Origin: Campylobacterales bacterium
Lineage (GTDB): Bacteria; Campylobacterota; Campylobacteria; Campylobacterales; Sulfurimonadaceae
Length of the DNA: 64,000 nt
Direction of reading: 5' to 3'
Assembly: GCA_016938735.1 (NCBI GenBank)
Contig: JAFGUB010000008.1
Span: 1-64,000, forward strand
Part shown: positions 14,929-62,099 of the stretch, piece by piece
How the letters are laid out: every line of letters begins with the position of its first letter
How positions within the stretch are numbered: the first letter of the stretch is position 1
Made by a program: the position numbers and the translations under genes
The notes under the pieces: generated by a model
The model's input: only the letters and a program-made list of their open reading frames with translations
Databases searched by the model: none
What the model was told of the DNA's origin: nothing

Positions 14929-14944
14929 ACAACAAAGGATGAAG

Positions 14945-15397: not shown

Positions 15398-15411
15398 ACA
15401 AAGGAAGACTT

Positions 15412-15780: not shown

Positions 15781-15876
15781 AGCACTGCCATCCTCCAAAA
15801 AACCGTTTCGTAATCTTTGCGTAGCGACCCTGTAACACCCCTTTGCGACAATCCGAAAATTTCTTTTCGGAGTTCT

Positions 15877-18159
15877 ATGATGACCCATGCCGCTTTTTCA
15901 CGCATCGCCCTCTCTCTTGTCGCCGCTTCGCTCGCGCTTTCGGCCAACACCCCGGCTCAAGAAGCCCAACTCGGTGCTTACGAGATCGTCGACACCAAAG
16001 AGAAGTTTCGTAACCGCTCCGAGACGATTGCTCCCAACCTGATCTACGACCGCGAATTTTTCGAGCGCTTTGAACCCGTTACCGTGGGCGATATGCTCAA
16101 GCGCGTCCCTGGCGTCACCTTTCAAGGCGACATCGGCGAGTACGATTTCGTACAGTTTCGCGGTCTCTCTCCGGCCTACACCCAAGTGCTCATCAACGGC
16201 AAGCGCGTTCCGGGTACCGGTTCGGATCGCGAGATCAACCTAGACCGTATCCCTGCCGAGATGGTCGATCGCATCGAGATCGTCCGCTCCCCTTCGGCTG
16301 AGCTGGACTCTCAAGGGATGGCCGGAACGATCAACATCATCCTCAAAGACGGCGAATCGCTCAAAGGCGGCTATTACCGCGTCGGCGCAAGCCGCCACAC
16401 CAACGGCGAGGACAACCCCTGGACGGAAGAGAAGTACAAGCCTAACTTCTTCCTCTCCTACAGTGACGATCTGGAGCACCTCAGCTACACCCTCTCAGCC
16501 TATTATCAAGAGCGTTACAACGCCAAGGACAAGATCACCAATGTTTACGAAGAGGGCCATTTCGACAAAGAGAGCTGGGTTGAAAACGAAGATGAATGGG
16601 ACAACCGCGACTCCAAAGACCTCTCGCTCTACGCCAAAGTCGATATTGATGTCACACACTCGGATCGTCTAAGCCTCTCTGCAAACCTTTTTAACACCGA
16701 GCGCAAAGAGGAGCAGTACGAATTCAAGCACAAACGTAAAGCAGTCGCCGATCCTTTCGTGATGAGCGGAATCGACCATCAGATCATGGATATCGATCAG
16801 CAAAGCTACACCATTGATACCGAGTACCGCCACACATTCGAGAGCAACGATGAAGCCGTTGCTGGTGCGACCTTCGATGGATACCATGGCGAACTCGATG
16901 ACTACGAAGCCAAAATCAAGACCAAAGTGCGCGACGACTGGAAGAGCATCAAAAACCTTCGCTCCATCAGCTACGGCGGCGAATTGACCGAAACGGACGA
17001 TGCGGAACTCAAGGGACATCTGGGTTATGTGATGAAGCGCTTCGAAGGTCATACCGTAAAATTCGGTCTGCAAGCCCAAAATAAAACCCGCGAAACGACC
17101 TACAAAACCTATGACGCCGAAGACGGCGTCAAGTCCCCTTATGAACTCGGTAGCATGGGCACACACGACATCGAGGAGCAACGCCTTGACTTCTACGCCG
17201 AAGACGGCTATCAAATCACCCCGGAGCTGAACGTAATGCTAGGGGCTCGTGTCGAAACTACGAATGTCGATCAAAAAGGGAGCGAAGGAGATGTCAGCAA
17301 CGACTACACCCTCTTTAATCCGCTCTTACATGTACGCTACGACCTCACCCAAAACGACCGTGTGCGTCTGAGCCTTGCCCAGACTGTTCGCCGTCCCAAC
17401 TTTGACGAAATGGTCCCTTTTGAAGCCGAAGATTCACCCCAAGACTACGATACCCTTAAGGGCAATCCCGAGCTTGAGCCCGAAACGGCCATCGGGGTAG
17501 ATCTTGGCTATGAGCACTCCTTTGGACGTCAATTCGGTATGGTTGGGGCCAACCTCTTTTACCGCAGCGTTAAAGACAAGATCGAGTACCTCTACCTAAG
17601 TGAAAACCTTGTAGATAATGACGGTGAAATTTTTAAAGGCGGTAACTACACCCTAGACAATGTAGCTGATGGAACGGTTCAAGGTCTTGAACTTGACGCG
17701 AGCTTTCCACTCAGCTTTATCGGCGTCCCTTCCGTGAGCTTCTTTGCCAATTACAGCTATTTTGACTCCAATATCGAAGATCCATTCACCGGCAAAGATC
17801 GTCGCTTCAATGACCAGCCCGACTACGCCTACAACTTTGGCCTGAGCCACACCCTCGCTTCACTGGGTCTAAGCTACGGCTTTAGCTACCAAAAGCGCGG
17901 CGACTCTACCTATGAAGACAGCGTTACGACTGAAAAAACAAGCTACGACGCCAACCTCGAAGCTTACATCGAGTACAAGCCTACCGACGCGCTTACCCTA
18001 CGCCTCACCGGCGACAATCTGCTTGATGCCGACGTGACCGAGAAGATGACCAACTACGAATCGCTTGAAGATAAGATCGCGGGCGAAGTTGACAACTATG
18101 AGACCCAGGTAGAGCGGGCCGGATCGGTCTTTATGCTGACGCTTTCAGGAAAGTTCTAA
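15877..18159 (+). CDS. TonB-dependent outer-membrane receptor (phytase-linked)
   Basis: This outer-membrane beta-barrel transporter has about 760 residues from ATG 15877, chosen because CGGAG precedes it and a signal peptide (ALSLVAASLALSA) follows at once. The plug domain (about 50-165) shows TVGDMLKRVPGV, VQFRGLSPAYTQVLINGKRVPG and the VDRIEIVRSPSAE segment. The barrel ends in a terminal Phe (LSGKF), the BAM signal. A phytase lipoprotein gene follows three bases downstream, so the likely cargo is a phosphorylated compound such as inositol phosphates released by that enzyme. Iron chelates cannot be excluded. Energy is probably supplied by the TonB cluster at 20-24 kb. Confidence 0.9.
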   Translation: MMTHAAFSRIALSLVAASLALSANTPAQEAQLGAYEIVDTKEKFRNRSETIAPNLIYDREFFERFEPVTVGDMLKRVPGVTFQGDIGEYDFVQFRGLSPAYTQVLINGKRVPGTGSDREINLDRIPAEMVDRIEIVRSPSAELDSQGMAGTINIILKDGESLKGGYYRVGASRHTNGEDNPWTEEKYKPNFFLSYSDDLEHLSYTLSAYYQERYNAKDKITNVYEEGHFDKESWVENEDEWDNRDSKDLSLYAKVDIDVTHSDRLSLSANLFNTERKEEQYEFKHKRKAVADPFVMSGIDHQIMDIDQQSYTIDTEYRHTFESNDEAVAGATFDGYHGELDDYEAKIKTKVRDDWKSIKNLRSISYGGELTETDDAELKGHLGYVMKRFEGHTVKFGLQAQNKTRETTYKTYDAEDGVKSPYELGSMGTHDIEEQRLDFYAEDGYQITPELNVMLGARVETTNVDQKGSEGDVSNDYTLFNPLLHVRYDLTQNDRVRLSLAQTVRRPNFDEMVPFEAEDSPQDYDTLKGNPELEPETAIGVDLGYEHSFGRQFGMVGANLFYRSVKDKIEYLYLSENLVDNDGEIFKGGNYTLDNVADGTVQGLELDASFPLSFIGVPSVSFFANYSYFDSNIEDPFTGKDRRFNDQPDYAYNFGLSHTLASLGLSYGFSYQKRGDSTYEDSVTTEKTSYDANLEAYIEYKPTDALTLRLTGDNLLDADVTEKMTNYESLEDKIAGEVDNYETQVERAGSVFMLTLSGKF

Positions 18160-18162
18160 ACC

Positions 18163-19191
18163 ATGAAGACCACCCTGCTTAGCCTCGCGCTTGCTCTGGC
18201 TCTAGGCGGCTGTGCCGAGCATCAGCGCACCTTACATGTAAGCGCCGACGCCCAAACCGAAGCGATGGCCACGCAAGGCGACGTCGCTGATGATCCGGCC
18301 ATCTGGATTCACCCAAATGACCCCTACCAAAGCCTCATCATCGGCACCCACAAAAAAGGCGGCGGGCTTGAAGTGTACGACCTCTCGGGCAAACACCTCC
18401 AAAGCCTACCTGACGGTCGCTTCAACAACGTCGATTTGCGCGACAACGTCCGTATCGGTGAGCAAAGCCTGAGCATCGTCGCCGCCACCAAACGCGACGA
18501 CGACACCTTAGCACTCTACGCGATCAACGCGCAAACGCGTCAGCTCTACCCTATCGCCGCGCGCGCTGTTGAGACGATCAAAGAGAATTACGGACTGTGC
18601 ATGTACCAAGAGGGCGAGCGCACCTATGTTTTTGTGAACAACAAAAACGGCACCGTCGAACAGCTTGAACTCTTTGAGGCTGAAGGCAAAGTCGATGCCA
18701 AACGCGTACGCCTCTTTGAGGTCGGCAGTCAGACTGAGGGCTGCGTCGCGGATGATGAAACGGGCGCACTTTATATCGGGGAAGAGAATGTCGGCATCTG
18801 GCGCTACGATGCAGAGGCCAACGCCCCCACACACCGCGTCCTCATCGACTCTACCGGGAAAAACGGCCACCTTGTCGCCGACGTAGAAGGCTTGGCGCTC
18901 TACGCCCTAGAAGGCGGTGCCGGTTACCTTTTTGCCTCATCGCAAGGTGAACATGCTTACAACGTCTATGACCGCCAAAGCGGCCTCTTCTTGGGTAAAT
19001 TTACTATCGACGACGATGTGATCGACGGCACAGAGGAAACAGACGGTCTCGATGTCACCTCTGCGAGCGTCGGTGTGCTCTACCCCTACGGCTTTTTGGT
19101 CGTCCAAGACGGCCACGCCACCCCCTCCAACACACAAAACTTCAAGCTCATCCGTATCGAAAAGATCCTCGCACCGCTCTCCTCTTTTTAG
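18163..19191 (+). CDS. Beta-propeller phytase, lipoprotein
   Basis: This predicted 3-phytase releases phosphate from inositol hexakisphosphate in a calcium-dependent reaction. It is 342 residues. The signal peptide ends in the lipobox LGGC with Cys17, so the mature enzyme is lipid-anchored, probably at the outer membrane. Family hallmarks are DDPAIWIHP (about 44-52), GGGLEVYDLSGK, RFNNVDLRD and AATKRDDDTLALY, typical of six-bladed beta-propeller phytases. It begins three bases after its TonB-dependent receptor; such receptor-phytase pairs are known from other Proteobacteria. A TTACATGTAA copy just after the lipobox is read Leu-His-Val-Ser. Confidence 0.9.
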   Translation: MKTTLLSLALALALGGCAEHQRTLHVSADAQTEAMATQGDVADDPAIWIHPNDPYQSLIIGTHKKGGGLEVYDLSGKHLQSLPDGRFNNVDLRDNVRIGEQSLSIVAATKRDDDTLALYAINAQTRQLYPIAARAVETIKENYGLCMYQEGERTYVFVNNKNGTVEQLELFEAEGKVDAKRVRLFEVGSQTEGCVADDETGALYIGEENVGIWRYDAEANAPTHRVLIDSTGKNGHLVADVEGLALYALEGGAGYLFASSQGEHAYNVYDRQSGLFLGKFTIDDDVIDGTEETDGLDVTSASVGVLYPYGFLVVQDGHATPSNTQNFKLIRIEKILAPLSSF

Positions 19192-19204
19192 GAGCGCGGA
19201 ACGT

Positions 19205-20380
19205 TCACGACCCCGTCAAAAACTCGATCCACTGCGACGCCGCTTTGGCGTGTTTGGGATCTTTTTTGGCCTCATCAAAGACCGCTTTGGCTTTGAGTGT
19301 CTCGTTTAGCTCAAAGTAGGCAAAGCCCTGCAGCATCAGCAGATCGCCTTTGCCGGCTCTGCCTTGCTTGAGTGCTTTATCAACGGTCTGCACCACTTTG
19401 TCGTATTGATGCTTTCGGGCGTAGAGGTTGGCGATCACGCCGTAGTGTTCCCCTTTTTCACCCTCCAAAGCAGCCAGCTCTTCATAATAGGCAATCGCGC
19501 TCAGATACTCCCGCGCACTCAAAAAGGCTTCGGCAGTGAGCTTCAGATGCTCCGTAGAGCGCGGTAGTTTTTGTGTGCGTAGCGCCTCATCAAGCACCTT
19601 TGATGCGCGATAGGGCTGATCTTGGGAGAGCAGCAGCCGCGCGTATTGCAGGGTTTCAGCTTCGCTAAACTCCATCTTTTGCGCGCGCATCAGCTCCATC
19701 ACGCCCAGCACCTCGCTGTAGCGCTCTTGCATTGCGTAGAGTCCGGCAAGCTGCGCGTAGTAGGTTTTATTCGGTTCAAAGAGCTCAATCATACCATGTA
19801 AGGTCTTTATCGCGTCATTTAAGCGCCCTAACTCATACTCCAGATAAAAACGGGTCTGGTAATGCAGCGCTACTGGCTTGGGGGATTGCGCTATCACCTG
19901 CTTCACCACGCCCAGCGCTTTTTCAAATGCTTTAGACTGCACCAGTGCGCTCACATAGAGCATCCGCTGCTCCGGGCTTACCACTTTGGCGTGTTCCATC
20001 CAGCGCTCAAAACGCGCGATAGCACGCGCATAATCGCCCTCTTGCAGATAGAGTTGCGCAAGATTGTAGAGCAGATTTTGCGTCATTGCCTCATCAAGCA
20101 TCTGCAGCGCAAGTGCCTTTTCAAAGACGACAAGGGCTTTGCTATAGCTCCCCTGCGCGATGTAGAGATAGCCGTAGATGTTGTACATGTAGGCCTGATC
20201 AAAGGGGAGCTTTTCTGATTTGACGAGATGCTCATCAAGCATCTTGGCGGCCTCAGTATACCGCTGCGCCTCCATCATCTCCTGCACCTTGGTGATCGTC
20301 TCGTAGGTCTTCATGCTCATGGTGGGCGCGGCAGCGTACAAAGAGGCGGCCAGCAAAAGCGTTACAATCGATTTGTTCAT
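19205..20380 (-). CDS. Tetratricopeptide-repeat periplasmic protein of the TonB cluster
   Basis: This 391-residue exported protein has a short signal peptide (MNKSIVTLLLAASLYAA) followed by about eight TPR-like helix pairs, for example AYMYNIYGYLYIAQGSYSKALVVFEKAL and NLAQLYLQEGDYARAIARFERWM. It is the last gene of the DUF3450-ExbB-ExbB-ExbD-TonB run. A TPR protein in this position is a known partner of TonB2-type systems, where it appears to assist TonB at the outer membrane. It converges with the phytase gene. A GTACATGTAG variant of the palindrome is read Tyr-Met-Tyr. Confidence 0.85.
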   Translation of the reverse strand: MNKSIVTLLLAASLYAAAPTMSMKTYETITKVQEMMEAQRYTEAAKMLDEHLVKSEKLPFDQAYMYNIYGYLYIAQGSYSKALVVFEKALALQMLDEAMTQNLLYNLAQLYLQEGDYARAIARFERWMEHAKVVSPEQRMLYVSALVQSKAFEKALGVVKQVIAQSPKPVALHYQTRFYLEYELGRLNDAIKTLHGMIELFEPNKTYYAQLAGLYAMQERYSEVLGVMELMRAQKMEFSEAETLQYARLLLSQDQPYRASKVLDEALRTQKLPRSTEHLKLTAEAFLSAREYLSAIAYYEELAALEGEKGEHYGVIANLYARKHQYDKVVQTVDKALKQGRAGKGDLLMLQGFAYFELNETLKAKAVFDEAKKDPKHAKAASQWIEFLTGS

Positions 20381-20389
20381 ACCTCTTCC

Positions 20390-21013
20390 TTACTGACTCA
20401 GACTAAAACGGATCGTCACCACACCGCTGTATTCCATCGCCACGCCGCCTTCGGTTTTGGGGCGGAACTTCCAGCGCATCAGCGTGCGGCTCACACTTGA
20501 ATCAAACTCGCCGGGAGGATCGGATTCGATAATCTCGATCGACTTGGGCTTACCCTCGGTATCGACGATGATTCTGGCCTTGACCGTTCCTTCGATCCCC
20601 AAGCGGCGTGCGCGCGGCGGATACTGCGGATCAATCCGCACCAGCGGGGTAAGCTCCGAATCGCCCTGCATCATGTTCATGGAGAGCGCCGCGCCTTTGG
20701 CAAACGCCCCCTGAGTCGGTAGCGCGGGCACCATGGCGCTGATGGGCGCACTTTGCGTGGGGGTCTGGCTCTGCGTGGCGATCTTTTGGGTCTGAGTGGG
20801 CGGTTGCGGCTTAGGCTTGGGCTCGGGCGGGAGACGCTTTTTCATCTCCGGCTCCGCCTCCTGGCGCTTGACGCGCACAAAGTCGATGCTGCGGCTCTGC
20901 GACGCGCTAAGCCCCACCGCCTCATCAGGGGTGATGAGCATCTGCATCATCCAAAAAAGCCCCACGACACACAACAGCGCCGCAAAAGCCGCCAGGATAT
21001 AGCGTACAAGCAT
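20390..21013 (-). CDS. tonB: Energy transducer TonB
   Basis: TonB carries proton-motive-force energy from ExbB/ExbD to outer-membrane receptors. From ATG 21013 it has about 207 residues: one N-terminal membrane helix (ILAAFAALLCVVGLFWMM), a Pro/Lys/Gln-rich periplasmic spacer (LPPEPKPKPQPPTQTQ) and a C-terminal TonB domain (YPPRARRLGIEGTVKARIIVDTEG ... MRWKFRP). It is short, like TonB2-family proteins. AAGGAC lies about ten bases before the chosen start, overlapping the end of exbD. It is placed between two groups of receptor genes and probably serves them. Confidence 0.9.
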   Translation of the reverse strand: MLVRYILAAFAALLCVVGLFWMMQMLITPDEAVGLSASQSRSIDFVRVKRQEAEPEMKKRLPPEPKPKPQPPTQTQKIATQSQTPTQSAPISAMVPALPTQGAFAKGAALSMNMMQGDSELTPLVRIDPQYPPRARRLGIEGTVKARIIVDTEGKPKSIEIIESDPPGEFDSSVSRTLMRWKFRPKTEGGVAMEYSGVVTIRFSLSQ

Positions 21014-21020
21014 CACGAAC

Positions 21021-21428
21021 TTAGTCCTTACTCGCGGCAAGCGAGACGTTTTCGATCCCTGCCAGACGAATCTGATCCATCACCGACACCAGCACCCCGT
21101 TTTGGGATGCCTTATCCGCCACAATCACCACCGAACCTTCGGGGTTTTGAGCGTGCAGACGCTCGATGTTGGCGCGTACGGCGGCGATCTCGACTAGCCG
21201 CTTATCGATCCACACCTCGCCGTTGGGCTTGATGCCGACCATAATATTGCCGCGCTCCTGACGCTCCGCCGTGTCGGCTTTGGGGCGGTTGACGCTGATG
21301 CCCGACTCTTTGACAAAAGAGGTGGTCACGATAAAAAAGATCAGCATGATAAAGACGATGTCAAGCATCGGCGTCATGTCGATGGCGGTGTCGTCCTCGC
21401 CGTTGTGGTTAAGATAATCGCGTTTCAT
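21021..21428 (-). CDS. exbD: ExbD-type proton channel subunit
   Basis: This subunit of 135 residues has one membrane helix containing the essential Asp (MTPMLDIVFIMLIFFIVT) and a periplasmic domain ending in DQIRLAGIENVSLA. It forms the motor with the ExbB proteins encoded just upstream. The ATG overlaps the ExbB stop codon, and AGGAG lies upstream. An in-frame GTG immediately before is an alternative start. Confidence 0.93.
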   Translation of the reverse strand: MKRDYLNHNGEDDTAIDMTPMLDIVFIMLIFFIVTTSFVKESGISVNRPKADTAERQERGNIMVGIKPNGEVWIDKRLVEIAAVRANIERLHAQNPEGSVVIVADKASQNGVLVSVMDQIRLAGIENVSLAASKD

Positions 21429-21946
21429 CACTTCTCCTGTGCCAGCTTGTCGTCAAAGCGGCTGAGCATTAGCGCGTTGGAGTGCTCCAGCCGCGACACC
21501 AAAAAAATCCCCGCAACCGCCACGACCATGCCCGCCATCGTCGGCACCGTGGCCAGCGATACGCCGTGCGCCATGGCTCTGGCGTTGCCCGTACCGGTCA
21601 CACCCATAATGTCAAAGACGTGAATCATACCGCTCACCGTGCCCAGCAGTCCCAGCATCGGCAGCATCGCCACCAGCACTTTGATAATCGGCATGATTCC
21701 CTGCAGCTCACTACGAAGCTCGGAGATCAGCGCATTGCGAATCTGCTTGGCGTACCATGAACGGTGCTCGCTGCGCTCGTGCCAATCGTGCAACAAGGTC
21801 TCACAACGTTTGGGTGCCTCTCGGTTCAGATACCAAAAACGCTCCAGCAACAGAGCGAACATCAAAAAAGCGACCAAAAAAATCAGCCACAAAATATCCC
21901 CGCCGCGCTCCATAAAGCGCAGTAAATCCTCAAACAGCAGCTCCAT
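21428..21946 (-). CDS. exbB: ExbB/TolQ-type proton channel protein (short)
   Basis: This three-helix MotA/TolQ/ExbB protein of 172 residues has helices at about 15-35, 90-110 and 130-155 with the family motif LLGTVSGMIHVF. It pairs with ExbD downstream and TonB. The gene lies one base after a longer ExbB homologue, an arrangement found in TonB2/TtpC-type systems, where both ExbB-like proteins are needed. Confidence 0.92.
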   Translation of the reverse strand: MELLFEDLLRFMERGGDILWLIFLVAFLMFALLLERFWYLNREAPKRCETLLHDWHERSEHRSWYAKQIRNALISELRSELQGIMPIIKVLVAMLPMLGLLGTVSGMIHVFDIMGVTGTGNARAMAHGVSLATVPTMAGMVVAVAGIFLVSRLEHSNALMLSRFDDKLAQEK

Positions 21947-21947
21947 C

Positions 21948-23267
21948 CTAGCGCCGCTCCATCCGACGTGCGATCAGTCCGGCGCTTTGTTGCGAGAGGA
22001 TCTCGATAATGGCACGTGAACGTGAACGTACCAGCGCGTGGGCAAAGAGCAGCGGCACCGCGACGATCAGACCTTGCATCGTCGTCACCAGCGCCTGAGA
22101 GATCCCTCCGGCCATCAGCTTCGGATCACCCGTACCAAAGAGTGTGATCGCCTGAAAGGTCTCGATCATCCCCACAACCGTTCCCAGAAGCCCCAGCAGC
22201 GGCGCAACGGCGGCAAGCAGCTTAATGAGCGCTTCGCCGCGCGTAATGGAAGGCAACTCTTTTAAAATCGCCTCATCCAGACGGCTCTCAACGATCTCGA
22301 CCGCTTCGGCAGCATTGGATTGATAGACGCTTAAAAGTCGGCCCAGCGGATTATCTGCCTTAGGTACGTCGATGGCCTTGAGCTGAGCAGAAATTTTGGA
22401 GCTGTGTATCAAGAGAATCCCTCCGCGCACCAGCGCGATGAACATTCCCAGAGCACCCAGCGCCAAAATAATGTAACCGATAACTCCACCTTGCGCCATG
22501 CGCTCTGAAGCCGTAGGCAGATCCATAAGCAGCTCCAAAATCGCGCCGCGAGTCGGGTCGATCACCGCGTCGCTGATGCCTGCAGGACGCTCTTGCATTC
22601 GTGAAGCCAGTGCAAGGTAGCGTGATTCAGGCTGACGCGGCAACTCAATGAGCTGCTCTTTTTCAACGTCATAGCGCAAAAATTTGCCCTCGGCTACCAG
22701 CGTAAAAAGTCCTGCGCGCAGTACCTGTGTTTTGCTAGATCTGCCATCGGGATGCACCACCTGCGCCTCAAACGAGGTCGTTTTACCCGACTCGACAATC
22801 TCTTCTAGCATCATCAACCACAGCTTTTGCAGCTCAGCCTCAGAAGGCAAACGCTTACTTTGCGACATTACATGTAAGGTTTCATAACGCCCCGGAATCT
22901 GCGCCGAAACGGCAGAGTTGCGCACCAACGCGGCCATATCGCCCGCGCTTTGGCGCACGACGCCAAAGAGTTCGCCCAGATTACCGGTGCGCTCTTTGAG
23001 GCTCTTTTCGCGTTCAACAATACGCGCTTCATTGGCTTCAAACGCCTCTTGCAAGCGTTTGGTCTCGCGACGCAGCGCTTCAAGCTCCGCTTTGGCCTCG
23101 CGCAGCGCTGCTTCGCGTCCCTCTTTCTCCTTCGCAAAACGCGCTTCACGCGCTTGCAGCTCCTGACTCCATGCGCTGTTTTGCGTTTTGACCTGCTGCA
23201 GCAGCGTATCGAGATCCTGTGCCAAAAGTGCAAGGGTTAGCCCCATCCATAGTGCGATCACTCTCAC
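21948..23267 (-). CDS. Long ExbB-family protein with N-terminal periplasmic coiled coil (TtpC-like)
   Basis: This 439-residue protein has a signal peptide, a strongly charged coiled coil (about 20-100, Glu/Arg/Lys rich), a middle periplasmic region and a C-terminal MotA/TolQ/ExbB channel domain (about 255-430, LLGLLGTVVGMIETFQAI). The domain order matches TtpC of Vibrio TonB2 systems. The start is GTG with AGGAGGTGCAAA upstream and overlaps the DUF3450 gene end by four bases. A TTACATGTAA copy is read Thr-Leu-His-Val. The role is most likely to couple the TonB motor to particular receptors. Confidence 0.88.
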   Translation of the reverse strand: MRVIALWMGLTLALLAQDLDTLLQQVKTQNSAWSQELQAREARFAKEKEGREAALREAKAELEALRRETKRLQEAFEANEARIVEREKSLKERTGNLGELFGVVRQSAGDMAALVRNSAVSAQIPGRYETLHVMSQSKRLPSEAELQKLWLMMLEEIVESGKTTSFEAQVVHPDGRSSKTQVLRAGLFTLVAEGKFLRYDVEKEQLIELPRQPESRYLALASRMQERPAGISDAVIDPTRGAILELLMDLPTASERMAQGGVIGYIILALGALGMFIALVRGGILLIHSSKISAQLKAIDVPKADNPLGRLLSVYQSNAAEAVEIVESRLDEAILKELPSITRGEALIKLLAAVAPLLGLLGTVVGMIETFQAITLFGTGDPKLMAGGISQALVTTMQGLIVAVPLLFAHALVRSRSRAIIEILSQQSAGLIARRMERR

Positions 23268-24010
23268 TTTGCACCTCCTGTTTTGACGATCGGCAAGCGC
23301 ATCAGATCAGGCGCGGCCTGTTTTTTGGCGATCAGCATCGCGCTTTTAAGCGGCCCAGCGTAGTCGTTTGGAAGCGGCTCAAAATGTTTGGTTGCGGGAT
23401 TATAGATGCCGTTTTGCGCTCCGTCGATACTGCGGTAGTAGAGCGCCAAACGACCGATGCGCAGCATATCAACCGTTTTGGTTTCACCGCCAAGGTCCAG
23501 TGCTTCACGATACACCTCAACCGTTCGGGCATATTCGTTCTCGCTCATGTAGGCTTCCATAATCTTGCGGTACTTCTCGCTCATACTAATGGAAGCTTCA
23601 TTCATCATCACTTTAAGCCCCTCTATGCGTTCACGGCGTTCCTGCATCAAAAATGGAGTATCGACGGCAACCATCTCCTCAAGCGTCGCGATCATGCGCT
23701 GCATCAGCGGCAAAAGCGCCTGCGCAGTGTGATCGATCTGCGCGATCTGCTCCTCAAGCGACGTAATCTCACGCTCTTGCGACGCTACCATCTGTGCCAT
23801 CTGTGTATTGTAACCACGAATGCGCTCTTGCTCTTGCAAAACGCTCCGATACTGCTCATAAAGTGCCGCGCTCGCATCATCGAGCGTCTCTACCTTTTGG
23901 GTGGAGGCGCGCTCCTGTATTTGTAGCTTCTGCGCCTCGTCTAACGTACCCTGCACGCTCTGCGCCCCAAGCGTTAGGGCTGCAAGCGCCGATATCGCAA
24001 CCAATTTCAC
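23264..24010 (-). CDS. DUF3450 periplasmic coiled-coil protein
   Basis: This 248-residue exported protein has a signal peptide (LVAISALAALTLGAQS) and a long coiled coil (about 20-110), followed by a globular tail with YYRSIDGAQNGIYNPATKHFEPL. This fits DUF3450, which regularly precedes TtpC-type ExbB genes. It uses a GTG start with AAGGAGCAGAT upstream. It is the first gene of the six-gene TonB operon, divergent from the receptor gene at 24188; the 177 bases between hold a TTACATGTAT variant and presumably both promoters. Confidence 0.85.
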   Translation of the reverse strand: MKLVAISALAALTLGAQSVQGTLDEAQKLQIQERASTQKVETLDDASAALYEQYRSVLQEQERIRGYNTQMAQMVASQEREITSLEEQIAQIDHTAQALLPLMQRMIATLEEMVAVDTPFLMQERRERIEGLKVMMNEASISMSEKYRKIMEAYMSENEYARTVEVYREALDLGGETKTVDMLRIGRLALYYRSIDGAQNGIYNPATKHFEPLPNDYAGPLKSAMLIAKKQAAPDLMRLPIVKTGGAK

Positions 24011-24187
24011 ATCTGCTCCTTAGGCGTGTTATCGAGTTTAAAGTTGGCATCATAACAAGCTAAAGGTTACAAAATGATGGGCCATGCGGTTACATGTATG
24101 TTATTCGACGGCAATATGTTTGTAATCAAATCCGCTTAAGATTGCGCCGTGTCTTCCACAAAATCAATCCAAACAATGGAGTCCTAC

Positions 24188-26353
24188 ATGACCGCAAAAC
24201 GTATGCTTCCGATCGCCGTCATTGCCGCTACGCATTTGATGGCGCTTGCCAATGCCCAGGAGGGGACGGAGCTTGGATCTGTCTCTGTCATCAGCCAAAA
24301 AGAGTCACTGGCCAACAACGTTGTTTCTAGCGACAACATTGCCCAGATGACCCCCATGACCGACGCCATGAACATGATCAACCGCCTTCCCGGCGTCAAT
24401 GTCCAGCAAGGCGACGCCTTCGGTTTTGACGACTGGACCACGCAGATGACTATGCGCGGATTCGATACCGACCAGATCGGCTTCATCATCGATGGCGTGC
24501 CCAACGGCCAGACCAACTACGGCGGCGGTGCCAAACCCAACCGCTTCTTGGAGACTGAAAACCTTGAAGCGATCAGTGTCACTCAGGGTTCTGCGGACAT
24601 CTCTTCTACCTCCAATCAAGCCCTTGGTGGAACCATCAACTACTCAACCGGCATGCCGACTAAAGAGGAGCGTATCAAAGTATCGCGCACTCAAGGCAGC
24701 AACAACATGGAGCGCACCTTTGTTCGCTACGACACGGGTCTCTTTAACAACGATCAAACCTCTGCATTCGTCAGCTTCTCTGATACCTTCGCCAACCGTT
24801 GGATCGGCACAGGCTCCAACGGCAAGTTCGAGCGCACCCACATCGAGGGCAAAATCAAGCACACTTGGGATGCCAACATGATCACGTTACGCGCTTCTTA
24901 CAACGACCGTTATGAGAACGACTACGATTCCGTCAGCCTTGAGGAGTTCGAAACCAATCCTACCACCGACCGTCTCACATGGTTCTGGACAGGTAACCCT
25001 GCGTATGATCAAAACTTCGCCGAGACATGGGCCGGTAAGCGCAAAGACACGATGGTCAGCGCCACAGGCGACTTTATGCTGCCTGCCGAACTGCGCCTTG
25101 TAGCCGTACCTTATTACCACCACCAGCGCGGTGAAGGCCACTGGATGCCACCATACATCATCACTTTCAACCCCGATGGCAGCACCAACAAAGTCTACAC
25201 CGACGAAGAGACCGGCGCGTACACCGCCTCACACCGCACCAGCCACTACGAAAACAACCGCTTCGGTACTACACTGAGAATCGAAAAAGAGCTTGAAAAC
25301 CATCTGCTCGCTGCAGGTATGTGGTATGAGTTCCAAAACCGCGACAACTGGCGTTCATGGTACCATGTGCTTGATGAAGCGACCCACTGGGCATGGGATG
25401 ACACCCCTTACTGGAAACAGTACGACTACAACTACGAAACCACCACTACCATGTTCTACCTCGAAGACAAAATGCACTTCATGAACGATGCACTGCAGGT
25501 CAATGTGGGTCTGAAGATCCACAATGTCGAAACAGATCTGAGTGATGAGATGAACGGCGGTTCATGGACGCAAAAGAGCGAATCGGAGCTGCTGCCGCAG
25601 ATCGGTCTGGTTTACAACGTCGATGCCAATCACCAACTGTTCACCAGCTACTCTCAAGGTTTTAGCGCCAAACCCGACTATCTATTGGGCGAAGATTTCA
25701 AAGATCCCGATCTCAAACCTGAAAAATCGGACAACTTTGACTTGGGATATCGCTACAAAGACAACGCGCTGGCCATCACTTCAGCGCTCTACTATACCAT
25801 CTACCGCGACCGTATCGGTAGCCGCGACCTCACAGCGGACGACACCGGAGATATCTTCTTTGATGAATCACTCACAGGATATTTCAACATCGGCGGTATC
25901 GAATCTTACGGCCTTGAGCTGGGCGCGACCTATCAGATCACCCCGACACTTAACGTCTATGCTTCATACACCTACAACAACTCTGAATACTCAGAGAGCA
26001 ACCCTGCAGAGGGAATCGTAGAGGGCAACAAAGTGGTAGCACAAGCTGAAAACATGGCTGCAATCGATCTGACCTACACCCGCAACGGTTACCTGCTGGG
26101 CATCAACGCCAAATACACCGGCGAGCGCTACAGCAAACTCGACAACTCCGAAAAAGCACCTGATTACACCCTTGTGGGTCTGGTTGCCGGTTACAACAAA
26201 AACCTCAAAGATAGCTTCATCAAGAACCTCAACGCTCAAGTCAACGTCTACAACCTGACTGACGAAGAGTATCTTGCCAGCGTATGGAATCCAGGTTCTT
26301 ACTACCTCGGCGCTCCACGCAACGTCACCTTTACCCTCGGCGGCAGCTTCTAA
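24188..26353 (+). CDS. TonB-dependent outer-membrane receptor
   Basis: This receptor of 721 residues starts at ATG 24188 (GGAG seven bases before; signal peptide MTAKRMLPIAVIAATHLMALANA). The plug has NMINRLPGVNVQQGDAFGFDDWTTQMTMRGFDTDQIGFIIDGVPNG and NQALGGTINY, as in catecholate/FecA-like receptors. The barrel shows AENMAAIDLTYTRNGYLLGINAKYTG and ends GGSF. It is divergent from the TonB operon and followed by a terminator, so it may be a single-gene unit. The substrate is unknown; placement suggests phosphorus compounds or metal chelates. Confidence 0.9.
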   Translation: MTAKRMLPIAVIAATHLMALANAQEGTELGSVSVISQKESLANNVVSSDNIAQMTPMTDAMNMINRLPGVNVQQGDAFGFDDWTTQMTMRGFDTDQIGFIIDGVPNGQTNYGGGAKPNRFLETENLEAISVTQGSADISSTSNQALGGTINYSTGMPTKEERIKVSRTQGSNNMERTFVRYDTGLFNNDQTSAFVSFSDTFANRWIGTGSNGKFERTHIEGKIKHTWDANMITLRASYNDRYENDYDSVSLEEFETNPTTDRLTWFWTGNPAYDQNFAETWAGKRKDTMVSATGDFMLPAELRLVAVPYYHHQRGEGHWMPPYIITFNPDGSTNKVYTDEETGAYTASHRTSHYENNRFGTTLRIEKELENHLLAAGMWYEFQNRDNWRSWYHVLDEATHWAWDDTPYWKQYDYNYETTTTMFYLEDKMHFMNDALQVNVGLKIHNVETDLSDEMNGGSWTQKSESELLPQIGLVYNVDANHQLFTSYSQGFSAKPDYLLGEDFKDPDLKPEKSDNFDLGYRYKDNALAITSALYYTIYRDRIGSRDLTADDTGDIFFDESLTGYFNIGGIESYGLELGATYQITPTLNVYASYTYNNSEYSESNPAEGIVEGNKVVAQAENMAAIDLTYTRNGYLLGINAKYTGERYSKLDNSEKAPDYTLVGLVAGYNKNLKDSFIKNLNAQVNVYNLTDEEYLASVWNPGSYYLGAPRNVTFTLGGSF

Positions 26354-26358
26354 ACCCC

Positions 26359-26389
26359 CTCTCCCCTTACGGGAGAGCCTTTTCTTTTA
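26359..26389 (+). terminator. Rho-independent terminator after receptor gene
   Basis: CTCTCCC pairs with GGGAGAG around a five-base loop and is followed by CCTTTTCTTTT. It lies five bases after the receptor stop codon. Confidence 0.75.
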
Positions 26390-26405
26390 GCCTTACATGT
26401 AAGGC
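26390..26405. repeat. 16-bp palindrome GCC-TTACATGTAA-GGC
   Basis: This exact copy of the iterated palindrome, with three extra symmetrical bases on each side, lies between a terminator and the next receptor gene. Confidence 0.9.
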
Positions 26406-26423
26406 GTGAATAAAAGGCTCCTG

Positions 26424-28112
26424 ATGACCAAAATCGTTCTCTCCTCGCTTTGCGTTGCCGCTATGGCCAATGACGTTTATGAAGTCACCGTGCGTCCGAT
26501 CGGTGGCACGCTGCAAAACCGGATCGACTTTCTTTCGCCCGCACAGCTTCAAAGCAGTGTCATGAATCTGCAGCAATCTTCCCCCTACCTTTACAGCCCC
26601 GTCAAAGAGGGGATGCAAGGCGATGCGCTGCTGCTGAGCACTGAAGGCATACGGCTGACCAACGCCCTCTTTCGCAGCGGATCCAATCAGTATTTCAGCT
26701 TCATCCCCCGCGCTTTTGTACAGGGCATCGAAGAGGACGCCGCTCTGCGCAGCCTGCAAAACAACGGCATCGGCGGCGAGATCAATCAGCGGCTGGGGAT
26801 TGTGCACAGCGGCGTAGGCGGAAGCTATACCCATTACAACCAAGGCATCGACGCCACCGCCGCCTATAAAGAGGAGCACGCCGCGCTAGGCATCAACGCC
26901 ATCACCACCCAAAACCACCATGACACCTTCGGCGAAGTGCCGCATTCAAGCTACAACCAAAAGTCGCTCTACGGTGAAACCACGGCGCTTGACGCACACC
27001 GCCTCATCGCGCTCTATAGCCAAAGCGACGATCTGCCGCGCACCGACAACTACACACGCGGCGTCCCGTATGACTATGAGCTGCAGCGTTATCTACATGT
27101 AAGCGATCACTTCCACTATGGCGACACTGCAGGCACGCTCTCCTATCAGCGTTTTGAAGAGCGTATCGACGCCGACGGCGTACCCACGAAATCGCTTGAT
27201 GATATGTACGGAATTTCGATTTCACAGCCTGTTGGAGACGCACTGCTGCTGAGCTTTAGCGACTACTTTGAGCGCATCGAATACAATGACGCCCGCTTCA
27301 GCCACAACACCCTCACGGCGCAACTGGCCTATCTTGGCTACCTTGGTGACGTGGAGCTGCTCGCGGCCTACAGCTTTGCCAACGCCTCCATCGGCGGCGA
27401 TCTCTCGCGCAGTTTCAACGCGCACGGCGGCAGTGTGCGGCTGGGGTATCGCGGCGTGTTTGGCTTGGTATCGCAAAGCTACCGCTTCCCCTCCATCACC
27501 AACCTCGCCACCGCGATTTTGAGCGAAAAAGGGATCGATCTGCCCAACGACCATCTTCTGCCTGAACGCGCGCTCACCTATGCGCTGGGCTTTGAAGATG
27601 AGCGCATCCTCTTCAAAGTCTACTACCGAGTCCTCGATGATCTGATTCTTAGAATGCCGCTAGAGCAGCAAATCGGGGGCCAGCAAGCCTTTGAGACCGT
27701 CAATGCCGATTCGGGTTTTGCCACCGGAGCGCTCTTACATGTAAACCAAAGCTTCGGTGCACTGCACACCTACGGCACGCTCGAATACACCTACGGCGAA
27801 ACCGACCGCGACTACTTAAGCAAAATCACCCCTTTTCGCGCCACGCTGCTCACCCAATACCGCGACCTCTTCGCCCAGTACGCCTACGCCTACAAAGGGG
27901 TGCACCTCAGCCAATCCGACCAAAAAGATGTGCGCATCGTCGGCCACAATGAGGGGTATAGCCTTCTTGATCTGGGCTACCGCTTCAAAGCCGCAGCACA
28001 CGAAGTCAAAGTCATAGCGCACAACCTTTTTAACACCGAAGGTCGGGTGATGGCCAGCTCGACCGATCTGCCGGGGCGCTCTTTTAGCCTCTCGTACATG
28101 TATACATTTTAA
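26424..28112 (+). CDS. Short TonB-dependent receptor
   Basis: This receptor has 562 residues from ATG 26424, where AAAAGG lies six bases upstream; a GTG at 26406 is an alternative but its ribosome site is too close. A signal peptide (IVLSSLCVAAMA) precedes a reduced plug-like region lacking a clear canonical plug signature (SPAQLQSSVMNLQQSSPYLY, GIRLTNALFRSGSNQYFSF) and a barrel ending SYMYTF. It lies nine bases before the phosphoesterase gene and is probably co-transcribed with it and PhoD, which suggests uptake of products or substrates of those enzymes. It contains one exact palindrome (Leu-Leu-His-Val-Asn) and two variants. Confidence 0.82.
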   Translation: MTKIVLSSLCVAAMANDVYEVTVRPIGGTLQNRIDFLSPAQLQSSVMNLQQSSPYLYSPVKEGMQGDALLLSTEGIRLTNALFRSGSNQYFSFIPRAFVQGIEEDAALRSLQNNGIGGEINQRLGIVHSGVGGSYTHYNQGIDATAAYKEEHAALGINAITTQNHHDTFGEVPHSSYNQKSLYGETTALDAHRLIALYSQSDDLPRTDNYTRGVPYDYELQRYLHVSDHFHYGDTAGTLSYQRFEERIDADGVPTKSLDDMYGISISQPVGDALLLSFSDYFERIEYNDARFSHNTLTAQLAYLGYLGDVELLAAYSFANASIGGDLSRSFNAHGGSVRLGYRGVFGLVSQSYRFPSITNLATAILSEKGIDLPNDHLLPERALTYALGFEDERILFKVYYRVLDDLILRMPLEQQIGGQQAFETVNADSGFATGALLHVNQSFGALHTYGTLEYTYGETDRDYLSKITPFRATLLTQYRDLFAQYAYAYKGVHLSQSDQKDVRIVGHNEGYSLLDLGYRFKAAAHEVKVIAHNLFNTEGRVMASSTDLPGRSFSLSYMYTF

Positions 28113-28121
28113 GGAGATCTC

Positions 28122-30851
28122 ATGCGTTTTTTACCCTTTTTGCTGCTTGGTTGGGCACTCTTCGCCCAAACCCCGCTGCCCACCAACGCCTTCATTACCC
28201 CTGATGCCGCCAAAGGGTCGCACTTTAGCATGCTTGATCCCAAGCTGCCCCACCTTCCGCAGTTTCGCGCCGGTCAAGCGGTCGCTACGGCGCTGAGCCC
28301 CGATGAACGCACCTTGCTGATCCTCACCAGCGGCTTCAACCGTATGAACCAACCTGATGGCACCATCGATCCAAACGCCTCAAACGAGTACCTCTTCGTC
28401 TTTGACACCAGTGTCACGCCCGCACGCCAAAAGCAGGTGCTTCAGTTACCCAACACCTTCTATGGCCTCGCATGGCACCCCAAAGGGGATCGCTTCTATG
28501 TCAGCGGCGGGGTGGATGACACCCTCTATGCGTTTGAACAAAGCGAAGGTCTATGGAACCGAAGCGCCGCGCTCAAGCTGGGTCATAGCGAAGGTTTGGG
28601 CATCGATATGAAGCCGATGGCCGCCGAAATCGCCATCAATACTGAGGGCAACTTAGCCGCCATCACCAACATGATCAACGACTCTCTCACGCTCATTGAC
28701 CTAGAACACTTCAGCATCCTCGATGAGCAAGACCTCAGACCGGGCAAACAAAACGCCGCCATGAAAGGCGTCGCCGGAGGCGAATACCCCTTTGGCGTCG
28801 CTTTTGCGGGGGATAAACTCTATGTCACCAGTATGCGCGACAACGAGATCGTGGTGTTACATGTAAAGAATAAACGTCTTTCCATCACGGCGCGTATCCC
28901 CTCGCCAAGCCAGCCCACAAGGCTCTTGGTGCATGGCCATGAGCTCTTTATAGCGCAAAGCCGCAGCGACACCATCGGCGTGATCGACACCCGCAATGAC
29001 GCCATGATCGGCACCTTCAGCGCCACCGCGCCCTATCATCTGCTGAATCAAACCCACCTCAAAGGTGCCAACCCCAACGCCATGACCCTCTCTGATGACG
29101 CCAACACCCTCTACGTCACCAACGGCGGCATCAATGCCGTTGCCGTGATTGATCTGCGGCGTGAACACGGGCGGGTGCATGGAGAGGTGCGCGGACTGAT
29201 TCCGACCGGATGGTATCCAACGGATCTCAGCCTAAAAGAGAATCGGCTCTACGTCATCAACGCCAAAAGCCCCTCAGGCCCCAATGTGGGCGACTGCCGC
29301 GACAACCTCAGCACCGATAAGAATGCCAGCCTTACATGTAAAGCCAAAAACCTCTACACATGGCAGACCAAAAAAGCAGGATTTTTAGAACTCCCCCTGC
29401 CAAGCACAGAGGAGCTTGAGCGTCTAAGCCTCATCGTCGCGCACAACAACGGCTTTATCCAAAGCGACGCGCACAAAAAGGCGCAAGAGGCCATGAGCTT
29501 TTTGCGCTCCAAGATCGAACATGTGATCTACCTCGTCAAAGAGAACCGCAGCTACGATCAGATCCACGGTGCGATGGAGATCGGCGACGGTAACGCTTCG
29601 CTCTGCCTCTTTCCGGAGCCCGTAACCCCCAACCACCACGCCCTGGCGCGTCACTTCATACTCTTTGACAACTTCCTGGACAGCGGCTCTTCAAGCAACG
29701 ACGGCTGGGTCTGGACGACCGCCGGCCATACCACCGAATACACCGAGAAAAACATCGCCATCCACTATGCCGGGCGTGGGCTTAGCTACGACAACGAAGG
29801 TCAAAACCGCAACCTTAATCTTGGCCTCGCCGATCCGCTTGAACGGACTAAAGAGGATGTGCGCGCGCCGAGTGACCCCGACTTGCTGCCGGGCATCGCC
29901 GACGTGGCCGCGCCTGATGGGCCCAATAGCGCGCCCAACGCCGGTTACATCTGGGACGCCGCTTTGCGCGCCGGACTGGAGGTGCGCAATTACGGCTTTT
30001 ATGTGGATGAAGAGCGCTACTACCTTGACCCCAAACACCCCTCGTTTGTGAAGCTGCATCCGCGTCCCTTTGAGGCCAACATCACCCAGTCCTACCCCAA
30101 CAAAGCCTCATTGCGCGACGTCACCGACCGCTACTTTCACGGCTATGACATGAAATACCCCGATCTGTGGCGCTATGATGAGTGGAAGCGCGAGTTTGAC
30201 GGCTATGTGCAAAAGGGTGCGCTGCCGCAGCTGATGCTGGTACGCTTTCCCCATGACCACTTCGGCGCTTTTGGCGAAGCGGTCGCGGGGGTCAATACGC
30301 CGCTGGCCCAAATGGCCGACAACGACTACGCCACGGGGCTGCTCGTCGAAGCCATTGCGAGAAGCCCCTTTGCGCACAACACCCTCATCTTTATCATCGA
30401 AGATGACGCCCAAGACGGCGCCGATCACGTCGATAGCCACCGCAGCGTCGCCTATATCGTCGGGCCGTACGTCAAGCAAGGCGCGGTGATCAACACCCGC
30501 TACACCACCGTCAGTATGCTGCGCACCATCGAAGAGGTGCTGGGCTTGCAACCGCTGGGCATCAACGACGCTATGGCGCTGCCGATGAGCGAAGCTTTTG
30601 ATCCCAAACAGCAATCATGGAGCTACCAGGCCATCGTTCCTGACGTGCTCTATCATACCGACCTAAGCCTCCCCAAACGCAGCAAGAAAGAGCCGCTGCC
30701 GCCTAAGGATCACGACTACGGCTACTGGGAGCGCGTGATGGCGGGACAAGATTTCAACACCGAAGACAACCTCGACGCCAAAGCCTTCAACAAAGCGCTC
30801 TGGAACGGGCTCAAAAGTGAACCGTTACCCCCACAACTTCAAGGAGAATAG
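28122..30851 (+). CDS. YncE-type beta-propeller / phosphoesterase fusion
   Basis: This secreted protein of 909 residues has a signal peptide (FLPFLLLGWALFAQ). Residues about 35-400 form a YncE-like propeller with repeated strand motifs (TNGGINAVAVIDL, LFIAQSRSDTIGVIDTRND). Residues about 465-880 form an alkaline phosphatase-superfamily phosphoesterase (YLVKENRSYDQI, SGSSSNDGWVWTTAGH, FIIEDDAQDGADHVDSHRSVAY). Such fusions are known; the enzyme likely cleaves phosphate mono- or diesters in the periplasm or at the surface. It is followed directly by the PhoD gene, its stop next to that ATG. Two exact palindromes lie inside, one read Leu-His-Val-Lys, one Leu-Thr-Cys-Lys. Confidence 0.87.
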   Translation: MRFLPFLLLGWALFAQTPLPTNAFITPDAAKGSHFSMLDPKLPHLPQFRAGQAVATALSPDERTLLILTSGFNRMNQPDGTIDPNASNEYLFVFDTSVTPARQKQVLQLPNTFYGLAWHPKGDRFYVSGGVDDTLYAFEQSEGLWNRSAALKLGHSEGLGIDMKPMAAEIAINTEGNLAAITNMINDSLTLIDLEHFSILDEQDLRPGKQNAAMKGVAGGEYPFGVAFAGDKLYVTSMRDNEIVVLHVKNKRLSITARIPSPSQPTRLLVHGHELFIAQSRSDTIGVIDTRNDAMIGTFSATAPYHLLNQTHLKGANPNAMTLSDDANTLYVTNGGINAVAVIDLRREHGRVHGEVRGLIPTGWYPTDLSLKENRLYVINAKSPSGPNVGDCRDNLSTDKNASLTCKAKNLYTWQTKKAGFLELPLPSTEELERLSLIVAHNNGFIQSDAHKKAQEAMSFLRSKIEHVIYLVKENRSYDQIHGAMEIGDGNASLCLFPEPVTPNHHALARHFILFDNFLDSGSSSNDGWVWTTAGHTTEYTEKNIAIHYAGRGLSYDNEGQNRNLNLGLADPLERTKEDVRAPSDPDLLPGIADVAAPDGPNSAPNAGYIWDAALRAGLEVRNYGFYVDEERYYLDPKHPSFVKLHPRPFEANITQSYPNKASLRDVTDRYFHGYDMKYPDLWRYDEWKREFDGYVQKGALPQLMLVRFPHDHFGAFGEAVAGVNTPLAQMADNDYATGLLVEAIARSPFAHNTLIFIIEDDAQDGADHVDSHRSVAYIVGPYVKQGAVINTRYTTVSMLRTIEEVLGLQPLGINDAMALPMSEAFDPKQQSWSYQAIVPDVLYHTDLSLPKRSKKEPLPPKDHDYGYWERVMAGQDFNTEDNLDAKAFNKALWNGLKSEPLPPQLQGE

Positions 30852-31919
30852 ATGAAAACCCTCTTACATGTAAGCCTGCTCGCGCTCTGGTTTCCCCTGC
30901 ACGCCATCGAGACCATCGCCTTTGGCTCTTGCGCCAACCAGTACCACGACCAACCGATCTGGCACACCATTGCCAAACACAAACCCGAATTGATGATCAT
31001 GCTGGGTGATAATGTCTATGCCGACGTGGAAGATGCGTGGATCGAAGAGGCGCGCATCAAAGGGCGCTCCAAAGCGCTCGATGCGAAGGTGACGCGCCAT
31101 ATCCAGACCCAATACGACGCGCTCAGTACCAATGAGGGCTTTAAAGCACTGCGCTCAACGATCCCTTTTGTCACCACATGGGACGATCACGATTTCGGCA
31201 AAGACGATATGGGCGGCGACTTTCCCTTTATCGACCGCTCCAGAGAGATTTTTCTACAATTTTGGCAAGCAGATCAAAATGCCCAAAGCGACGGCGTCTA
31301 CAGCGCTTACATGTACGGCGAAGCGGGCAAACGCGTCCAAGTGATTCTGCTCGATTCGCGCACGATGCGCACGACGCAGTTTCGCGTGGATGAAGCCACC
31401 TACAAAGAGCGCCAGAAACGCCAAATGGGGCCTTATCTCGCCAACCCCGATACGCAGGCGCAGATGCTGGGAGCACAGCAGTGGCGCTGGCTTGAGGAGC
31501 AGCTACGCCAGGAGGCCGATCTGCGCATCATCGGCTTTTCGATTCAGTTTCTCGCCGATTTCACGGGCTGGGAGAGCTGGGCCAATTTTCCCAAAGAGCG
31601 CGAACGTCTGCTCTCGCTCATCGCCTCCACCCGCGCCGAACATGTCGTGATGCTCAGCGGCGACACCCACTGGGCGGAGCTAAGCCACCTGCATGATTCG
31701 CGCAGCTACGGCTTGTGGGAGCTCACCTCCAGCGGCCTTAGCGAAGAGTGGAGCGACGTTTCTCCCAATCAAAACCGTGTCGGAACGCCCTACGCCAAGG
31801 CCAATTTCGGGCTGATCCGCATCGACTGGAAGGCACGCCGCGTCACACTCGAAGTGCGTAATGTAGGCGATGAAGCGATCATCACGCAAAACATCCCTTT
31901 TGAGACCATGGAGTTTTAA
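30852..31919 (+). CDS. PhoD-like alkaline phosphatase/phosphodiesterase
   Basis: This 355-residue exported metallophosphoesterase begins with a signal peptide (MKTLLHVSLLALWFPLHA). Motifs typical of the PhoD family follow: GSCANQYHDQPIW, LMIMLGDNVYAD, TTWDDHDFGKDD, and later HVVMLSGDTHWAEL near residue 265. These residues bind the Fe/Ca-type metal centre. It is shorter than classical PhoD and lacks its N-terminal domain. It is the last gene of the receptor-phosphoesterase-PhoD run and precedes the tRNA promoter. Codons 4-7 are a TTACATGTAA copy inside the signal peptide. Confidence 0.9.
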   Translation: MKTLLHVSLLALWFPLHAIETIAFGSCANQYHDQPIWHTIAKHKPELMIMLGDNVYADVEDAWIEEARIKGRSKALDAKVTRHIQTQYDALSTNEGFKALRSTIPFVTTWDDHDFGKDDMGGDFPFIDRSREIFLQFWQADQNAQSDGVYSAYMYGEAGKRVQVILLDSRTMRTTQFRVDEATYKERQKRQMGPYLANPDTQAQMLGAQQWRWLEEQLRQEADLRIIGFSIQFLADFTGWESWANFPKERERLLSLIASTRAEHVVMLSGDTHWAELSHLHDSRSYGLWELTSSGLSEEWSDVSPNQNRVGTPYAKANFGLIRIDWKARRVTLEVRNVGDEAIITQNIPFETMEF

Positions 31920-50864: not shown

Positions 50865-50934
50865 GATAAGTTGCCTTCATTTTTCGGGGATTGTATCATA
50901 GTTTCCTATGTAAATGCTGAAAACTATCTGCTAG

Positions 50935-51837: not shown

Positions 51838-51839
51838 TA

Positions 51840-52382: not shown

Positions 52383-52443
52383 CGCCTACACCTTTTTTGA
52401 AAAATCTTGGAATTATATAATAAATTCCTTTGCAAAACATAAA

Positions 52444-53688: not shown

Positions 53689-53689
53689 G

Positions 53690-54815: not shown

Positions 54816-54821
54816 CAAACA

Positions 54822-55777: not shown

Positions 55778-55797
55778 AGTTGTCCTTCGTTTAGCAA

Positions 55798-58100
<2,303 letters not shown>

Positions 58101-58108
58101 AAGAGTCC

Positions 58109-59626: not shown

Positions 59627-59646
59627 TACCTATCTCCTCTCATAAT

Positions 59647-60693: not shown

Positions 60694-60702
60694 TCCTCCT
60701 CA

Positions 60703-61125: not shown

Positions 61126-61146
61126 ATCACCTCCTAAAGTTGCGAG

Positions 61147-61152: not shown

Positions 61153-61245
61153 CAGTTTCTTATTTGAAGCAACAGTTAAAGATTAGGGAGAAAGTTAAAG
61201 TTAGACAGGAAGCTATTTAGACAGTAACCGAACTGTAGACATTAA

Positions 61246-62094: not shown

Positions 62095-62099
62095 CGTGC

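Follow-up and report, generated by a model that had tools for sequence, protein, structure and literature searches.

The window (the whole 64,000-nucleotide stretch analysed here, positions 1-64,000 of contig JAFGUB010000008.1) comes from a 2.85 Mb genome assembled in 62 contigs, whose host is a sulfur-cave bacterium related to Campylobacter, a Sulfuricurvum-like member of the Sulfurimonadaceae (Campylobacterota). The block that concerns us consists of three transcription units: a TonB-dependent receptor (TBDR1) and a phytase on the plus strand, a TonB2-type operon on the minus strand, and, again on the plus strand, TBDR2, TBDR3, a propeller/phosphoesterase fusion and a PhoD-like phosphatase. 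The TonB2-type operon and the TBDR2 unit diverge from one 177-bp intergenic region, and a tRNA cluster at 31990 forms the far boundary of the block. Profile searches recovered every gene that an earlier note on this DNA had named, close to where it had placed them, including the full, linked TonB2-type motor, whose six-gene operon they confirmed. The note's proposal that the enzymes are exported or lipid-anchored is likewise supported, with a signal peptide on the PhoD-like protein and the LGGC lipobox of the phytase. The features are given below; promoter ranks are among the 57 oriented upstream regions of the 64-kb window, scored with an 18-bp matrix trained on pstS promoters.

15809-15852, plus strand: Pho-box-like array upstream of TBDR1, CGTAATCTTTG CGTAGCGACCC TGTAACACCCC TTTGCGACAAT; repeats phased at 11 bp, -10-like GACAAT (score 8.9, rank 2 of 57)
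15877-18159, plus strand: TBDR1, TonB-dependent receptor paired with the phytase (Pfam Plug 64.8 bits, barrel 140.9 bits; TIGR01782 208 bits)
18163-19191, plus strand: beta-propeller phytase lipoprotein, LGGC lipobox (PF02333, 298 bits, residues 4-336)
19205-20380, minus strand: TPR protein, TtpD-like, last operon gene (TPR Pfam; position as ttpD2 in Vibrio, PMC6957404)
20390-21040, minus strand: TonB (PF03544, 71 bits)
21021-21431, minus strand: ExbD (PF02472, 103 bits)
21428-21946, minus strand: ExbB2-like protein (PF01618, 69 bits)
21948-23267, minus strand: TtpC-like protein, DUF3450-like N-terminus and MotA/ExbB domain (PF01618 94 bits, PF11932 26 bits)
23264-24010, minus strand: DUF3450 protein, TtpB-like, first operon gene (PF11932, 262 bits)
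24065-24082, minus strand: Pho-box-like site in the ttpB operon promoter, GCCCATCATTTTGTAACC (score 10.6, rank 1 of 57)
24110-24143, plus strand: Pho-box-like site upstream of TBDR2, GGCAATATGTTTGTAATC, -10-like TAAGAT (score 8.2, rank 3 of 57)
24188-26353, plus strand: TBDR2, TonB-dependent receptor with siderophore-type barrel (Pfam Plug and barrel profiles)
26424-28112, plus strand: TBDR3, short divergent receptor (hhalign to TBDR barrel, E 6e-6)
28122-30851, plus strand: YncE-like beta-propeller fused to a phosphoesterase (PF04185 41.5 bits, propeller matches)
30852-31919, plus strand: PhoD-like phosphatase with signal peptide (PF09423 96 bits; PDB 2yeq, E 7e-13)

The phytase, the receptors and the other hydrolases

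The family profile PF02333 spans nearly the whole phytase, and the best relatives among solved structures are the Bacillus phytases (PDB 1poo/3amr, E 2e-66). The core residues D55, K76, R122, Y159, K179, E211, E227, D258 and E260 are conserved, as are Q279, D308 and D314; we take these residues to be catalytic or calcium-binding, as in the Bacillus enzyme, and, judged by sequence, the active site is intact. Phytases are rare in the Sulfurimonadaceae (5 of 228 genomes, 3 of 18 genera). The Sulfuricurvum sp. MAG SulCav_PC08-66, which is labelled Sulfurimonadaceae in our phytase tree, encodes one that is 90% identical to that of the window. In this 36-row tree the four Sulfurimonadaceae rows cluster (support 75/84), and the gene may therefore have entered the family a single time; a recent gain by the host species alone was considered and rejected, given this clustering and the recurrence of the linkage described below.

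Orthologues of TBDR1 adjoin a phytase in four other genomes (G001, the closest relative of the host and a member of its genus, G017, G382 and G500). Outside the Campylobacterota, TBDR1-like receptors adjoin the phytase at 21 of 32 phytase loci, mostly in Alphaproteobacteria, and motor genes were found within 10 kb at none of the 32 (both by tblastn, E 1e-8). The receptor-phytase pair is, then, of a kind already known elsewhere: a TBDT-phytase pair has been published for Citromicrobium (PMC3400609) and the PhoB regulon of Caulobacter includes TBDRs and a phytase (PMC11208175), such that the likeness to the Alphaproteobacteria lies in a receptor adjoining a beta-propeller phytase and, in Caulobacter, in phosphate-starvation control. 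The accessible text on Flavobacterium johnsoniae (PMC8115612) describes a TBDT beside a PF02333 phytase, as in the window, the pair being induced by Pi depletion only, and also PUS loci in which TBDTs lie beside PhoX and phosphodiesterases. No TonB/ExbB/ExbD operon is reported with the pair in that text, and the transporters described there are of the SusCD type, whereas the window block has none: no SusD-like partner, the mark of PusCD, was detected among the block proteins scanned by profiles.

The remaining receptors differ in how readily they can be classified. A relative of TBDR2 pairs with a YncE-phosphoesterase in G047. TBDR3, whose plug the earlier note had read as reduced, matches no Pfam family, Plug included; its barrel half resembles TBDRs by profile comparison only, approximately 108 residues separate the signal peptide from the barrel, and a structure model built from a three-sequence alignment was discarded at a pLDDT of 36. 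The earlier note had suggested that TBDR3 may be specific for products of the phosphoesterase genes behind it, and the relatives lend this pairing no support: a TBDR3 relative (34% identical) follows PhoX in G047, and it is with TBDR2-type receptors that YncE-phosphoesterases pair (twice in G047 and in G498). The other hits that TBDR3 gave within the phylum are weak (E 1e-4 to 1e-6), look like generic barrel matches, and were set aside. The profile scores of the phosphoesterase and the PhoD-like protein are modest; the latter is called PhoD-like because it falls in superfamily PF09423 but scores 43.7 bits against the PhoD equivalog NF058638, for which the cut-off is 1000 bits.

The motor and its neighbours in relatives

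TonB motors are usually regarded as machinery for iron, vitamin B12 or glycans. The window operon is complete in the order ttpB-ttpC-exbB-exbD-tonB-ttpD, with gene content and order identical to those of Vibrio TonB2/TonB3; the Vibrio TonB2 operon is linked to Fur, its ttpB and ttpD genes are both essential, and iron is the nutrient with which TonB2 systems are chiefly associated (PMC6957404). Might the window motor be an iron system too? The TonB2 operon together with TBDR2 and TBDR3 could serve siderophore or heme iron under Fur, with the phosphorus enzymes as chance neighbours, or TBDR1 could take up ferric phytate mainly for its iron. That ttpB/ttpD-bearing operons are iron systems in Vibrio and that TBDR2 scores with siderophore receptor models speak for such a reading, which we nonetheless consider highly improbable in light of the gene neighbourhoods and the promoters; TBDR1 may all the same import ferric phytate.

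We searched the DUF3450 protein of the window against 228 Sulfurimonadaceae genomes (E < 1e-20) and read the neighbourhoods of all matches. This DUF3450/TonB2 subtype is present in 13 genomes, and in 10 of them, the host included, phosphorus enzymes adjoin it, a recurrence that argues against an iron system. The enzymes beside the motor come in swappable combinations of phytase, PhoX, PC-phospholipase C, YncE-phosphoesterase, GDPD, PhoA and PhoD:

G017 and G382: PhoX, a heme-protein-like (cyt) gene, TBDR1, phytase
G500: the TBDR1-phytase pair (63% and 58% identity to its window counterparts), immediately upstream of the motor
G047: PhoX, TBDR3 relative
G498: TBDR, YncE-phosphoesterase
G499, G583 and G529: PhoX, PC-phospholipase C, TBDR
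G531: GDPD, TBDR, phosphodiesterase-superfamily protein, PhoA
The other three carriers: PPK2 at a contig end (G012); locus cut off (G558); receptor only (G397)

The earlier note had named the presence of the block in relatives as a check, and the linkage of motor and phosphorus enzymes indeed recurs in at least four Sulfurimonadaceae genera, for which reason we do not regard it as chance. Read from gene content, the locus in the Sulfurimonadaceae is a modular cassette in which one TonB2 motor subtype is combined with interchangeable receptor/hydrolase modules. In another family, f9 (ten genomes), the operon lies mostly beside receptors and a protein of approximately 525 aa that looks PepSY-like from its N-terminus; these loci gave no match to references for phytase, PhoX, PhoD, YncE-phosphoesterase and PPK2, a set without PhoA, GDPD and phospholipase C.

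Promoter motifs

A Pho-box matrix was derived from the pstS upstream regions of 15 other genomes by an unsupervised Gibbs search, with 12 kept in the final matrix. The motif is an 11-bp direct repeat, TGTAAYC-N4-TGTAACC, before a -10 element, and has Pho-box geometry. The three block promoters take the first three ranks in the window, which speaks against iron control; when upstream stretches are cut at neighbouring genes they rank 1, 2 and 4 of 33, and with a 33-34-bp matrix that adds the -10 element, which is less discriminating than the 18-bp version, the block ranks at a width of 33 bp are 2, 4 and 6-8. The window sites are weaker (8-11 bits) than the pstS sites (14-23 bits, leave-one-out). 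Among relatives, G017 (18.8), G382 (14.9) and G500 (8.1) have their top match at the TBDR1-phytase promoter, and in G047, G498, G499, G529 and G531, too, a block promoter leads. Overall, a block promoter is on top in 9 of 11 loci against 1.6 expected (P ~8e-7, an optimistic value because the species share ancestry and true promoters have an advantage over gene starts inside operons). Since the window sites are weaker than those of pstS, Pho control is suggestive for the window, and the motif evidence for it is stronger for the family.

The Fur box gives the opposite picture. At the three window promoters the best matches to the 19-bp Fur consensus reach 9-10 of 19 positions, no better than shuffles, for which 10 is the mean. 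Control by iron and not phosphate, which the earlier note had held would tell against its proposal, is thus the reverse of what the sequence points to, with Pho-box-like sites present and a Fur box absent at the block promoters. Fur matches of 14-16 of 19 do occur at the operons of G397, G402 and several members of f9, and those of f9 and G397, with their PepSY-like or TBDR neighbours, lend the iron reading some weight; these counts are themselves suggestive only, because the genomes are AT-rich and the shuffles covered the window promoters only. At such Fur-type operons the Pho matrix finds mostly nothing notable, the exception being G402, where two receptor promoters lead the list with low scores. 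The window thus departs from the Fur- and iron-linked Vibrio TonB2 operon in its Pho-box-like sites, its phosphorus enzymes and the lack of a detected Fur box at its promoters.

A probable phosphorus locus with its own motor

Synteny in relatives, the Pho-box ranking and the predicted active site of the phytase agree with the earlier note that the block serves phosphorus, and we think it likely that this is a phosphate-starvation-induced locus for organophosphate utilisation with its own TonB2-type motor. At low phosphate, a PhoB-like regulator would bind the 11-bp repeats at the three block promoters (TBDR1, ttpB, TBDR2). Proton-driven TtpC/ExbB/ExbD/TonB, with TtpB and TtpD, would energise the receptors, as expected from family function, and through the receptors phytate and other organophosphates, intact or already hydrolysed in part, would reach the periplasm. 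Three enzymes, the phytase lipoprotein, the propeller-phosphoesterase and the PhoD-like protein, are predicted to free phosphate in that compartment or at the outer membrane, and this phosphate could then enter via PiT permeases. The genome has two of these, one behind a Pho-box-like site (11.7); no PstS or PhoU, and no PstC above cut-off, was found in the 62-contig assembly.

Where hydrolysis takes place bears on what the receptors carry. Enzymes at the cell surface could release orthophosphate that alone enters via porins, leaving the receptors and motor for other cargo; the phytase is a lipoprotein that may face inward or outward, and elsewhere phytases lie beside a receptor with no TonB operon inside 10 kb. 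In most loci, however, the hydrolase is preceded by a receptor and shares its promoter, an arrangement that would be pointless if phosphate alone crossed, and we judge surface hydrolysis unlikely. The earlier note had pictured cleavage first, with the products then taken up by the receptors; we lean towards organophosphates being imported whole or after partial cleavage and hydrolysed in the periplasm, because free phosphate would need no receptor.

Which organophosphates are imported is a separate question. The phytase homologue and the receptors might act on phospholipids, DNA or sugar phosphates, with phytate irrelevant in a sulfidic habitat. Substrates do seem to vary, since in relatives the same motor and kinds of receptor occur together with phospholipase C, GDPD and PhoX, and the genome implies no plant source of phytate; yet the PF02333 active-site core is conserved and the TBDR1-phytase pair is retained in G500 at 58-63% identity, and we give this reading some credence while doubting it.

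Taken together, synteny, regulation and the intact phytase site lead us to suggest that an iron-type TonB2 motor appears to have been recruited to the Pho regulon. The block motor is not the only one in the genome: a second, diverged TonB2-type operon lies on another contig (C37) and a further TonB on a third (C1). Upstream of the second operon is a consensus-like Pho box, TGTAACCATTATGTAACC (21.2), and downstream is a gene for a PhoB-like regulator; its counterpart adjoins pst genes in G043 and G006, and in G043 also phoU and a phoBR-like pair. It seems probable to us that in the Sulfurimonadaceae a TonB2 motor moved from Fur to PhoB control and became the engine of a modular locus with exchanged receptor-hydrolase modules (phytase, PhoX, phospholipase C, YncE-phosphoesterase, GDPD, PhoA), and that the second operon did likewise, giving two phosphorus-dedicated motors. 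Counting against dedication, the other two TonB proteins of the genome could serve the block receptors.

Phosphate acquisition in the Campylobacterota is usually pictured as Pst plus PhoX. The closest published parallel within the phylum is Campylobacter jejuni, with its phosphate-responsive phosphatase system of PhoX and PhosS/PhosR; the paper mentions neither TonB nor phytase (PMC3197622). The novelty that the earlier note had sensed thus appears to lie in the dedicated TonB2 motor and in its occurrence in Campylobacterota: in a literature search of limited scope, and so as weak evidence, we found no paper on phytase, or on organophosphate uptake coupled to TonB, in this phylum, and no report of an iron-type TonB2 motor put to phosphorus use. 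If this account is true, a promoter switch can re-assign whole TonB systems to another nutrient, and the use of organophosphates or phytate extends to chemolithotrophic Campylobacterota of sulfidic waters. The Pho-box and Fur-box versions of one operon would also offer a clean comparative case for TonB specificity.

A final observation concerns the surroundings of the second TonB2 operon, which is flanked by a large receptor and a repeat lipoprotein of approximately 750 aa; the two recall, as a resemblance only, the TBDT and FII lipoprotein that the accessible text on F. johnsoniae places in its phoBR cluster.

Second TonB2 operon and its neighbours

The genome from which the window derives carries, on another contig, a second and diverged TonB2-type operon with a DUF3450 gene, and a predicted Pho-box at -96, TGTAACCATTATGTAACC, scores as strong there. 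The locus comprises:

G000:C37:1-15305 (L088), second DUF3450-TonB2 operon
Same locus, beside the operon, receptor of ~1076 aa with a CarbopepD domain
Same locus, beside the operon, PhoB-like regulator

The counterparts of this operon in G043 (L166) and G006 (L180) are adjoined by pst genes. Behind Pho boxes, and adjoining the second operon, lie lipoproteins of ~750 aa with two internal repeats:

L166:10330-12597
L180:6265-8562
L089:4414-6609

Pfam and NCBIfam profiles returned no family over cut-off for these three proteins, which are possibly akin to Flavobacterium's low-Pi FI/FII lipoproteins and, again possibly, to ElpS of Caulobacter.

Phosphate transport and PhoX-like genes

A flanking gene marked by M[HY]VERLS..LDA is common to the source genome (L212, G000:C3) and its same-genus relative (L214, G001:C242); it adjoins pst genes in the relative and a PiT permease in the source genome, as if Pst had been swapped for PiT at this site in the latter. 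In F. johnsoniae, a MauG-like gene adjoins PhoX. Most PhoX-like genes of the Sulfurimonadaceae are adjoined by a conserved protein of 468-565 aa with a weak cytochrome P460 match:

L076:13088-14491
L152:6596-7993
L205:7756-9450

Relatives and the rest of the window

In G500 (L198), a hybrid sensor kinase (15751-19983) whose periplasmic domain is of the phosphonate-binding type (PF12974) lies 3 kb away from the TBDR1-phytase-TonB2 operon. The receptor and YncE-phosphoesterase are duplicated in tandem in G047 (C136, L082), the phosphoesterase copies showing 56% and 49% identity to the window protein.

Upstream of the block, at window positions 12934-15780, lie the genes for a subtilase and for two secreted proteins of small size. 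The second of these two (15412-15780) has a hydrophobic segment and a basic tail at its end, VPLFGAAGALLLALLFGVGAHRR, which looks like a C-terminal sorting signal. G+C is 41-46% at 50000-64000 vs 49-57% elsewhere in the window, and ORF sizes at 55382-59626 suggest a putative ATP synthase operon.
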